Below are positions 10,470-64,000 of a stretch of 64,000 bases of DNA, one piece after another (position 1 is the first letter of the stretch; each line of letters starts with the position of its first letter). The DNA comes from an uncultured Verrucomicrobiota bacterium (GTDB lineage Bacteria > Verrucomicrobiota > Verrucomicrobiia > Opitutales > Opitutaceae): NCBI GenBank assembly GCA_903904685.1, contig CAIVDS010000114.1, positions 1 to 64,000 of the forward strand. Direction: 5' to 3'. The notes under the pieces are model-generated. The model made no database searches, had not been told where the DNA came from, and saw nothing but the letters and a program-made list of their open reading frames with translations. Position numbers and translations under genes: made by a program.

Positions 10470-11555
10470 TCACGGCGTGATCACCGGGTAGCTGCCCATC
10501 CACTTCACGAGCGGACAGAATTTCCGCAGCTCGGCGACGGCCTCCTTCATGGCGGCGTCCTCGTAGTGGCCGGTGACGTCGATGAAAAAATAATAGTCCC
10601 ACGGGCGACGTTTGCTCGGGCGCGACTCGATCTTGGAGAGGTTGATGCCACGCTCGCTGAAGGGTGAAAGCATCTTCAGCAACGAACCGGAATGCGACGC
10701 CGCCTCGTCACCGAGGGAGATGAGCAGGCTCGTCATATCGCGACCGCCACCGACGGGGCCGGACGGTTTTTTGCCAAGCACGAAGAAGCGCGTCGTGTTG
10801 TCGGCCTTGTCCTGGATGCCTTTGGCGAGCACCGGAACGTTGTAAAATTGGGCGGCAAGTTCACCGGCGATGGCGGCAACACCGGGCGTCTCCTTGGCAA
10901 TCTGCACCGCGCGGGTCGTGCTGGGCGCATCAATGAGCTGGGCGTGCGGCAGGTGGCGCTGAATCCAAAGGCGGCACTGCGCGAGCGCCGTGTCCTTGGA
11001 ATAGACCTTCTCGATTTTTTCCAGCGGCGTGGCCGAGATGAGCGCGTGGCTGATGTCGAGGTAGATTTGGGCGACGATCTTCAGGTCGCTTTCGGCAAAG
11101 CTGTCGATGGCCTCGCGCACGGAGCCCTCGGTTGAATTCTCGATGGGGATGACCGCATGATCGACCTCGCCCTTTTCCAAGGCGACGAAGATGTCCCCGA
11201 TGGTCGGCATCGCATGGTAATCAACGCTCGCGCCAAATTTCTTCATCGCGGCGGCGTGCGTGTAGCTCGCCTCCGGGCCAAGGTAGGCGATAAGCAGCGG
11301 TTTTTCCAAGGCGATGGCCGCCGACATGATCTCGCGGTAGATGGCCTGCAGCGCCTCATTTTTTATCGGCCCGTGGTTGAGCGCGGAAACCTTGCGCAAC
11401 ACGGCATCCTCGCGCTCCGGCACATAAATCTGGCTGCCGGAAGTGCGCTTGAGCTTGCCGATCTCGGCGGCGAGCGCGAGTCGGCTGTTGAGCAGCTCGA
11501 CGAGCTGGTGGTCATGCGCGTCTATTTTTTCCCGGATGGGTTGGAGCGGGTCCAT
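10470..11555 (-). CDS. pheA: P-protein: chorismate mutase / prephenate dehydratase
   Basis: AroQ-type N-terminus (IREKIDAHDHQLVELLNSR), then LGPEASYTHAA, IPIENSTEGSV, TTRFFVLG and C-terminal ACT-like domain. Confidence 0.95.
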   Translation of the reverse strand: MDPLQPIREKIDAHDHQLVELLNSRLALAAEIGKLKRTSGSQIYVPEREDAVLRKVSALNHGPIKNEALQAIYREIMSAAIALEKPLLIAYLGPEASYTHAAAMKKFGASVDYHAMPTIGDIFVALEKGEVDHAVIPIENSTEGSVREAIDSFAESDLKIVAQIYLDISHALISATPLEKIEKVYSKDTALAQCRLWIQRHLPHAQLIDAPSTTRAVQIAKETPGVAAIAGELAAQFYNVPVLAKGIQDKADNTTRFFVLGKKPSGPVGGGRDMTSLLISLGDEAASHSGSLLKMLSPFSERGINLSKIESRPSKRRPWDYYFFIDVTGHYEDAAMKEAVAELRKFCPLVKWMGSYPVITP

Positions 11556-22980: not shown

Positions 22981-23301
22981 TCAGGACGACGGGCGGTCGA
23001 GGCGCACCAGGCAGTGGCCGAAGTCGATCTCAAACGTGCCGGGCGCCGGACGGAAGGCGGGAGTCAGCGAATACATCCGGCCATACACCGACTTCACTAC
23101 GCCGAGTTTGAGCATCAGCGCCATGTGATGGGAGGCCATGCCCCGCGACCGCCCCATCCGTCGCCCCAGCTCATTGACGGGCAGCACAGGCTCCTTGCAC
23201 AGCTCGCGCAGCGCGATCCATCGTTCCGTGCGGCCCAAGAGACTCGTGACTTGCTTCAGATTTAGCGCCGGTGCGGGGATTGTCGGGTTGGTTTCGCTCA
23301 T
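22981..23301 (-). CDS. Small winged helix-turn-helix DNA-binding protein, divergent from array 1
   Basis: LLGRTERWIALRELCKEPVLPVNELGRRMGRSRGMASHHMALMLKLGVVKSVYGRMYSLTP: ArsR/MarR-like wHTH. Confidence 0.75.
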   Translation of the reverse strand: MSETNPTIPAPALNLKQVTSLLGRTERWIALRELCKEPVLPVNELGRRMGRSRGMASHHMALMLKLGVVKSVYGRMYSLTPAFRPAPGTFEIDFGHCLVRLDRPSS

Positions 23302-23311
23302 AAGATGAAAA

Positions 23312-23324
23312 ATCGGCCTCCGAT
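23312..23324. promoter_or_regulatory. Palindrome upstream of the wHTH gene (candidate operator)
   Basis: ATCGG-CCT-CCGAT perfect 5-bp inverted repeat about 10 bp upstream of the wHTH start. Confidence 0.3.
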
Positions 23325-23390
23325 GGCCTGTTTTTGGGTAAAATCGACGTTTTTAGGGGTTCAGCACCTCATTTCGGGGTATTTTCGATG

Positions 23391-23726
23391 GTTTTTGGCC
23401 TTTTGACAATAGTTTTTACGCTTACACCGACAACTTTTACTATTACACCGATAGTTTATCCGCCCACGCGGATAACATTTCAGACTACACGGCTAGTTTA
23501 TCCGGTTACATCGGTAGCTTTTTATATTACTTAGCTAACTTATCTTATTACATGGCTAGTTTGTCTTATTACATGACTAACTTTTCTTATTACCGCGCTA
23601 GCTTTTTATCTTACCGCACTCGGTTTTATTCCTACCGCGCTAGCTTTTCTTATTACATGACTAGGATTTTCTATCACACGGCTAGTTTTTGTTCTTACAC
23701 GGCTAGATTTTACCCCTGCCGCGCTA
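23391..23726. repeat. Array 1: about 16 degenerate tandem units, 21-bp period, T-rich
   Basis: Consecutive 21-mers from 23391: GTTTTTGGCCTTTTGACAATA, GTTTTTACGCTTACACCGACA, ACTTTTACTATTACACCGATA, GTTTATCCGCCCACGCGGATA, ACATTTCAGACTACACGGCTA, GTTTATCCGGTTACATCGGTA, GCTTTTTATATTACTTAGCTA, ACTTATCTTATTACATGGCTA, GTTTGTCTTATTACATGACTA, ACTTTTCTTATTACCGCGCTA and so on. Confidence 0.93.
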
Positions 23727-23832
23727 CGGTCGGAGCCGCCAGCAATGACCCGGCGGACGACATGGCACGCTCGCGGAATCCCCACATACGGGCTTGCCCG
23801 CAATCGGGCGGGCCAGCAACTTGGCCCCCTTC

Positions 23833-62797: not shown

Positions 62798-62985
62798 ACC
62801 GCCCCCCTCCCCCTCGCGGGAGACCCGGCGGCTCGCGCCGGAGCGGGCAACCCGCCCCGCAACGATTCGTCGGCATCCGCCAAAGACCCGCGCCCACCCC
62901 TCACGGGCGCAACCGCATCCCCCAACGGGATAAACCCTCCCCTCGGAACTCCGCCCGGCTTCGATGGACGCTTGTTGCGATTCCC

Positions 62986-63489
62986 CAACACGCCAACCGG
63001 ACACCCCAATGCCAAAACCAGACGCCCCAGTGGAAGAAATCCTCACATCAATGGCGTAATCGCTCACATCAGTGGAACAATCCCTCACATCAATGGCGTA
63101 ATCCCTCGCATCAGTGGAACGATTCCTCTCATCAATGGCGGAATCGCTCACATCAGTGGCGTAATTGCTCACGTCAGTGGAGGAATCCTTCACGTCAATG
63201 GAGCAATTCCTCTCATCAATGGCGTAACCGCTCTCATCAATGGCGTAATTGTTCACATCAGTGGAACAATCCCTCACGTCAGAAGCGTAAATCCTCTCGC
63301 CACAAGCGTAACTTCTCTCACCAGAGTCGTAATCTGTCACGCCAGCGCCCTAACCGGATGCGCCACTACGCTAACCGGACACACCAATGGCCTAACCGGA
63401 CGCGCCACTGCGCTAACTGGACACGCCAACGTGCTAACCGGACGCACCAACGCCCTGATTGGACGCGCCGGAAGCCCTTTTGCACGCAA
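62986..63489. repeat. Array 2: about 24 degenerate tandem units, 21-bp period, two subfamilies
   Basis: Consecutive 21-mers, e.g. 63049 CAATGGCGTAATCGCTCACAT, 63070 CAGTGGAACAATCCCTCACAT, 63091 CAATGGCGTAATCCCTCGCAT, 63112 CAGTGGAACGATTCCTCTCAT ... 63385 CAATGGCCTAACCGGACGCGC, 63406 CACTGCGCTAACTGGACACGC, 63427 CAACGTGCTAACCGGACGCAC. Confidence 0.95.
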
Positions 63490-63649
63490 CGATATCTGAA
63501 CGGCACAGGAAACCGCGCTTCTAAGACGCACCGGAAGTCGCAGTTACGCGGGTAATACTTCAATTGCACCTCCCATGATGCCAACGCAAAGCCATCCCGC
63601 CCCGTTTCCCCTCCGGCCACTGCCTTCCGTCCACCGCCGCAGGCGCGCC

Positions 63650-63749
63650 CTTCAACTTGAACTCCCAACTTGAACTGCACGGCGTCGCAACCCCGTCCGC
63701 CCGCATCCTTGAACTTGAACTGGCAACTTGAACTTCGCGGCGCCGCATC
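63650..63749. repeat. Two imperfect 42-bp direct repeats containing CAACTTGAACT motifs
   Basis: 63650 CTTCAACTTGAACTCCCAACTTGAACTGCACGGCGTCGCAAC and 63708 CTTGAACTTGAACTGGCAACTTGAACTTCGCGGCGCCGCATC. Confidence 0.8.
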
Positions 63750-63823
63750 GGCGCCTCGTTCCCTTTGGGCCATCCGGCCCAGAATCAAACCAAAAAAACA
63801 TCAAAACCTAACTCATCACTAAC

Positions 63824-64000
63824 ATGGCTGACTCAAACTCACCCACCCCCACGCCCGACGATCCCAACTCGGAGAAGGCCAAACGCCTTCGCTCCGTCAT
63901 CAACCAGGCCCTCTCCGCCGAGGTCACCCTCGGAGGCGCGGTCGCCGCCGCCGCCGCCAAGGTCGAATACGCCGCCGCCCTTGCCGCCGAAGGCATCGAG
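63824..64000 (+). CDS. N-terminus of an Ala-rich hypothetical protein, cut by the window end
   Basis: MADSNSPTPTPDDPNSEKAKRLRSVINQALSAEVTLGGAVAAAAAKVEYAAALAAEGIE, open to the window edge. Confidence 0.55.
   Translation, partial: MADSNSPTPTPDDPNSEKAKRLRSVINQALSAEVTLGGAVAAAAAKVEYAAALAAEGIE

Follow-up and report, generated by a model that had tools for sequence, protein, structure and literature searches.

Operators of the ArsR type typically consist of one or two imperfect palindromes, and plasmid iteron/Rep origins carry tandem repeats of about 21–22 bp, set in helical phase and adjoining an autoregulated gene; a spacing of 21 bp corresponds to two turns of B-DNA. In the TubR–tubC system, a small winged-helix protein binds several direct repeats ahead of its own operon, which it thereby represses; the N-termini of its recognition helices enter the major groove, and a filament assembles along the repeats (PMC5016525). 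Here we describe tandem arrays with a period of exactly 21 bp in a 3.2-Mb Opitutaceae assembly (114 contigs, 99.98% complete). The stretch of DNA analysed, called the window throughout, comprises 64,000 nucleotides of contig C114 (C plus a number denotes a contig of this genome, G plus a number another genome and L plus a number a fetched locus) and contains the following features:

22981–23301, minus strand: predicted ArsR-like winged-helix (wHTH) gene, 106 aa (MSETNPTIPAPALNLKQ...), one of eight paralogues
23302–23406, minus strand: wHTH leader of about 105 bp, 70–93% identical between wHTH paralogues
23411–23725, minus strand: array 1, family F1, immediately ahead of the wHTH gene, with about 15 units of 21 bp that are unrelated to those at 62979–63468
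23708–23763, minus strand: conserved left end, common to the wHTH loci on C99 (98%) and C56 (93% over 29 bp), the C56 array itself being unrelated
62979–63468, plus strand: the array under study, family F2, 23 units of 21 bp (62986–63468) plus 7 bp
63469–63552, plus strand: decayed 3' edge of this array, its phase only partly kept
63553–63823, plus strand: spacer or leader between array and family-A gene, with out-of-phase indels between copies
63824–64000, plus strand: start of the family-A gene, an orphan of 240 aa that runs past the window to C114:64546

The likeness to TubZRC lies in the wHTH gene standing behind a block of direct repeats, an arrangement found at all ten wHTH genes (8/8 in this genome, plus one each in G213 and G118). 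It differs from TubZRC in that no TubZ GTPase or other conserved partner lies beside the wHTH genes within the fetched flanks, in that there are about eight dispersed chromosomal copies with exact 21-bp units, usually more than ten of them, and in that arrays are common to wHTH genes and to the unrelated family-A genes. In the mechanism proposed below, the arrangement would work like TubR on tubC, but it does not amount to TubZRC. The wHTH protein resembles the ArsR/SmtB proteins CadC, CzrA, NmtR and NolR in fold and sequence, but the arrays hold about 8–28 direct units without dyad symmetry. With iteron/Rep origins they share tandem, near-21-bp repeats in helical phase next to a gene; in contrast, they are multi-copy, no Rep-like protein is present, and the neighbouring gene encodes either a wHTH protein or an orphan helical one. 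An iteron/Rep origin was rejected because the adjacent gene is not a replication initiator, family A matching no family and the wHTH protein being ArsR-like.

Within positions 62980–63560, identity at a lag of 21 reached 0.62, with peaks at multiples of 21 only, as against at most 0.34 in 500 shuffles of the same interval, which bears out the 21-bp register proposed in the initial annotation. The two unit sub-families described there are likewise present, the early one (62986–63342) following CAxTGG...AATCxCTCACAT and the late one (63343–63468) following ...CTAACCGGACGCGC. Other elements of that description needed adjustment: the claimed 24 or so units resolve into 23 full ones followed by a decayed tail, and the motifs said to stay in phase beyond 63469, as far as about 63552, do so only in part. 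Since homology to two other genomic copies begins at 62979, the true left edge lies a few bases outside 62986. The proposed 42-bp alternation holds up, although a higher-order repeat of 84 bp, within which it is nested, is stronger, as shown for the early block by identities of 0.72, 0.76, 0.72 and 0.83 at lags of 21, 42, 63 and 84 and by TRF scores of 200, 258 and 325 for 21, 42 and 84 bp. Segment 63238–63279 closely matches 63049–63090, as read from the unit listing, and the reported excess of transitions between units holds (ts/tv of 1.0, compared with 0.47 predicted from composition). The units of this array show no significant dyad symmetry.

The array is not an isolated feature of rpe, and the initial annotation had not seen the wider class of arrays, their association with genes or the link to a regulator. 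Besides the second array in the window, the genome holds several homologous copies and many arrays of unrelated sequence but identical period, about 30 in all; random sampling and targeted fetching gathered about 28 strong ones, mostly of 18–28 units. A random 598-kb sample, which includes the window, contained six arrays, all of exactly 21 bp when periods of 10–70 were scanned, and none occurred in 400 kb of chromosome from TAV5 (G104). The first survey relied on a TAR-based pattern and is biased, which does not affect the random sample or the gene-led counts, and most repeated counts refer to paralogues within one genome. Several arrays are solo, with no obvious partner gene. A protein-coding heptad repeat was rejected, as most arrays carry stops in most frames and the mod-3 pattern is inconsistent, and a guide-RNA (TIGR/CRISPR-like) array was dropped because no unrelated spacers separate the units. 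In the literature on Verrucomicrobia and Opitutaceae we found no description of 21-bp arrays or of such an array–regulator arrangement.

Several observations concern the surroundings of these arrays. Heptamer tandem repeats of the TAGGAGC type, frequent in other Opitutaceae, mimic a 21-bp period (e.g., G212:C1:785712, G218:C10:19466 and G133:C1:1787993). Several arrays are bordered at their outer edge by a dispersed palindromic repeat of about 120 bp (L118:1595–1725, L126:6583–6701, L161:8752–8860 and 10629–10747, L175:14062–14152), which also stands on both sides of the unit of array and gene on C113; a second repeat, about 150 bp long, occurs close to the arrays on C14, C19 and C67. Contig C12 (L119, L206) shares about 6.9 kb at 100% identity with G013:C88 (L199), from another genus; this may reflect a foreign contig cross-binned into one of the bins or a very recent transfer, and no main conclusion depends on C12.

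The array had been discussed as an element of the rpe neighbourhood, with orthologous loci lacking it named as evidence against a constrained function. Such loci are the rule: the array is present at 0/11 congeneric rpe loci, and among 80 more distant ones no strong array adjoins rpe, two loci having a weak or heptamer-like signal elsewhere, so that an rpe-linked cis element is rejected. However, this comparison looked to the wrong one of the two flanking genes. The upstream synteny (lipoprotein and rpe genes) is kept in relatives; the array is the upstream region of the next gene, a member of family A, and not a feature of rpe.

Family A has ten full copies in this genome, and a 21-bp array lies directly upstream in all nine that are testable. 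The tenth starts at the end of contig C43; the end of C63, which overlaps that of C43 by 9 bp, carries an array and leader that match, and this, as read from the printed ends, indicates that the tenth copy is probably array-preceded too. Elsewhere, all three full copies (G208, G216 and G111, the last from another genus) are preceded by an array; behind the arrays on C12, C49 and C112 stand remnants of a family-A gene, from its C-terminal part. The spacer in the window contains a hairpin, GGGCC-ATCC-GGCCC, at 63767–63780. No significant match to the protein was obtained in Pfam, NCBIfam, PHROG or PDB, a phage, plasmid or viral origin found no match either, and a fold search gave 0 matches at E <= 0.001, with no recognisable DNA-binding fold in the predicted structure, which is modelled as all-helical and apparently composed of two similar halves. 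Several family-A proteins are basic (pI 9–10), others have a pI of 6–8. In the family-A gene on C113 (L161:9677–10016), the N-terminal coding region consists of a 7-aa repeat (TEIPSTG AESPSAT), the 21-bp period running into the protein.

A second orphan family, YIPR, shows the same placement in other genera, where all eight full copies lie directly behind a 21-bp array; none was found in an even sample of the phylum, a sample that carried no positive control. Comparison of the two families with hhalign (probability 4%, E 0.011) is only suggestive of homology. Unit dyad symmetry is significant in six of the eight YIPR arrays. In G103, two YIPR genes encode proteins 98% identical and match at 96% of DNA positions from the 3' end of the array onward, the arrays themselves being unrelated. 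Upstream of both arrays of this pair (G103:C62; arrays from L194:7217 and L216:8150) stand poly-C runs of about 27 and about 12, in flanks that are diverged but related, and the tract is possibly phase-variable. In TAV5 and G103 (L190, L194) the YIPR gene is followed by a gene with an FGE-sulfatase domain, with a PEP-CTERM motif in TAV5. The YIPR arrays in L209 (G087:C206), L210 and L212 show block inversion within a fixed 21-bp unit, for example AAGACGTTCTTGTTTGCCTCA versus AACAAGAACGACTTTGCCCCA.

The wHTH family came to light through the flanking ORFs of arrays that lie outside the other families. The array-linked protein of 106 aa is, by sequence and modelled fold, a predicted ArsR-like winged-helix protein, with Pfam matches to HTH_20, HTH_5 and MarR_2, profile matches to NmtR (3e-5) and CadC (5e-4), and fold matches to CadC and CzrA (the two best) and to NolR. 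At all eight loci of this genome the array ends about 105–126 bp ahead of the start codon. Only two further homologues were found, in G213 and, from another genus, G118; the G213 array is weaker and that of G118 has mainly a 42-bp period, and the G213 locus is orthologous to that on C56, since a purN-like neighbour is common to both. Within the fetched flanks the wHTH loci have no downstream gene in common, the wHTH gene appearing monocistronic, and no wHTH gene was found beside the arrays of other genera (YIPR arrays included) or the solo arrays of this genome. The paralogous genes are 75–96% identical, and their arrays can be aligned within a family and otherwise not at all: between sub-families the leaders remain 70–83% identical and the arrays are unalignable. 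The recognition helix spans residues 53–65, and columns 51–55, which cover the turn and the N-terminus of this helix, form the most variable five-residue window of the protein (0.80 versus a mean of 0.29; 0 of 20000 permutations). In the same columns pN/pS is 4.9, compared with 0.46 elsewhere, values resting on few sites and 21 non-independent pairs.

Although adjacent units differ at about 35–50% of positions, the signal at a lag of 21 is not approached by that at any nearby lag. Alignment of paralogous arrays yielded 19 gaps, 16 of them multiples of 21 and 3 not, whereas 0/13 gaps in the adjacent spacers were multiples; these counts were made with strict gap penalties (cheap gaps gave compensating artefacts) and reuse related pairs. 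Out-of-phase gaps per substitution differ between arrays and spacers with a Fisher p of 2e-5, which is indicative only because the compared pairs share members. In the C99 array, a 20-bp unit is offset a few units on by one of 22 bp. The pattern supports the proposal that arrays grow by duplicating units, which then diverge with their period constrained, and the arrays thus appear constrained in spacing, not in sequence. The wHTH loci on C56 and C114 share left end and leader with unrelated arrays between them and, together with the YIPR pair of G103, indicate that arrays are replaced or rewritten in place with the period retained.

Clustering of the arrays connects wHTH and family-A genes. 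F1 unites the wHTH loci on C114, C31 and C99 with family-A loci on C24 and C49 and two solo arrays; F2 joins the wHTH locus on C39 to the family-A loci on C114 (the array under study), C63 and C112 and to a solo array (S:C19b), its members matching the array under study at E values of 1e-34 to 1e-126. F3 comprises the wHTH loci on C56, C100 and C96, F4 that on C21 with two solo arrays (profile z 7.2 and 5.2), and F5 and F6 have no recognised wHTH member. In F1 and F2 the orientation of the array relative to the gene is identical for wHTH and family-A members, and none of the F1–F6 unit consensus sequences has dyad symmetry. These memberships point to the wHTH paralogue on C39 (C39:37764–38081) as the candidate regulator of the array under study. 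The co-divergence of array and wHTH could be joint inheritance, but the conserved leader and left end speak against simple drift; on C99 the recognition helix differs, yet the array belongs to F1.

We favour, with a probability of about 0.58, a reading in which the arrays are helix-phased operators bound by co-diversifying wHTH autoregulators that control the family-A genes. It draws on evidence that is all comparative: the location of the arrays upstream of gene families, the exact phase, copy change by whole units, the array families common to wHTH and family-A genes and the hypervariable recognition helix. From this we infer that the wHTH proteins physically bind the arrays, that they do so cooperatively and that they regulate, probably repress, the genes behind; any role of family A is inferred too. 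The array at 62979 would be a series of protein-binding sites two helical turns apart, forming the control region of the family-A gene at 63824. Such arrays would be bound cooperatively, along one helical face, by small wHTH proteins whose genes lie elsewhere in the genome; every wHTH gene, having an array of its own, would regulate itself, and family-A genes preceded by an array of the matching family would answer to the wHTH protein of that family. Arrays would gain and lose whole units, and array sequence would shift together with the recognition helix, so that several mutually independent families of regulator and array would coexist in the genome. Against this reading, ArsR dimers usually prefer imperfect palindromes, and the F1–F6 consensus has no dyad, dyads occurring mainly in the YIPR arrays. 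A bolder version, which we put forward tentatively and with the odds somewhat against it, is a self-diversifying system of mobile wHTH genes, each with a phased array read by it alone, in which joint change of array and helix would open new channels that family-A and YIPR genes could join by acquiring a matching array.

The arrays might instead be a functionless satellite, made by slippage or unequal exchange and associated with genes only through joint duplication. Satellites and VNTRs typically change copy number by whole units, have decayed edges and contain higher-order repeats, and the many solo arrays fit as well, but we think this unlikely: the phase is held at about 40% unit divergence, with many substitutions and out-of-phase indels nearly absent (3/19 array gaps versus 13/13 spacer gaps, in non-independent pairs), and the arrays occupy a fixed location before three specific gene families in several genera, with unrelated arrays at the equivalent upstream position. 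The two YIPR copies of G103, alike from the array edge and preceded by unrelated 21-bp arrays, and a recognition helix diversifying at pN/pS > 1 tell against it too.

That the family-A or YIPR protein binds its own array, as plasmid Rep binds iterons, would explain the strict adjacency of gene and array and agree with the basic pI of several family-A proteins. We nevertheless rate it improbable, given that the predicted structure of family A neither matches the PDB significantly nor shows a recognisable DNA-binding fold, that its other members have a pI of 6–8, and that similar family-A genes (C98 and C19) and near-identical YIPR genes stand behind unalignable or distant arrays. A role as transcribed leader RNA, through repeated motifs or as a decoy, not as DNA sites, could account for the constant orientation in F1 and F2; it is very improbable, as the array under study matches no Rfam family and the arrays, unrelated in sequence, have only a DNA-helix-like spacing in common. 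Finally, the arrays could be recombination or insertion platforms for gene shuffling by cassette exchange, without regulatory role. The mixed combinations of one gene family with several array families, the duplication boundary in G103 exactly at the array end and the palindromic repeats abutting several arrays are compatible with this, the least probable of the readings weighed here: it leaves the exact phase and the hypervariable recognition helix unexplained, and neither a recombinase nor a target-site duplication was identified at the loci.

In the reading we favour, that of operator arrays bound by wHTH autoregulators, anonymous tandem repeats become tied to specific genes, with a candidate regulator proposed. 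The wHTH paralogues would form a natural series of predicted DNA-binding proteins whose hypervariable recognition helices lie beside their likely targets, making the evolution of independent regulator–operator pairs directly testable, and the arrays show that a two-turn spacing of 21 bp can be retained through complete replacement of the sequence.
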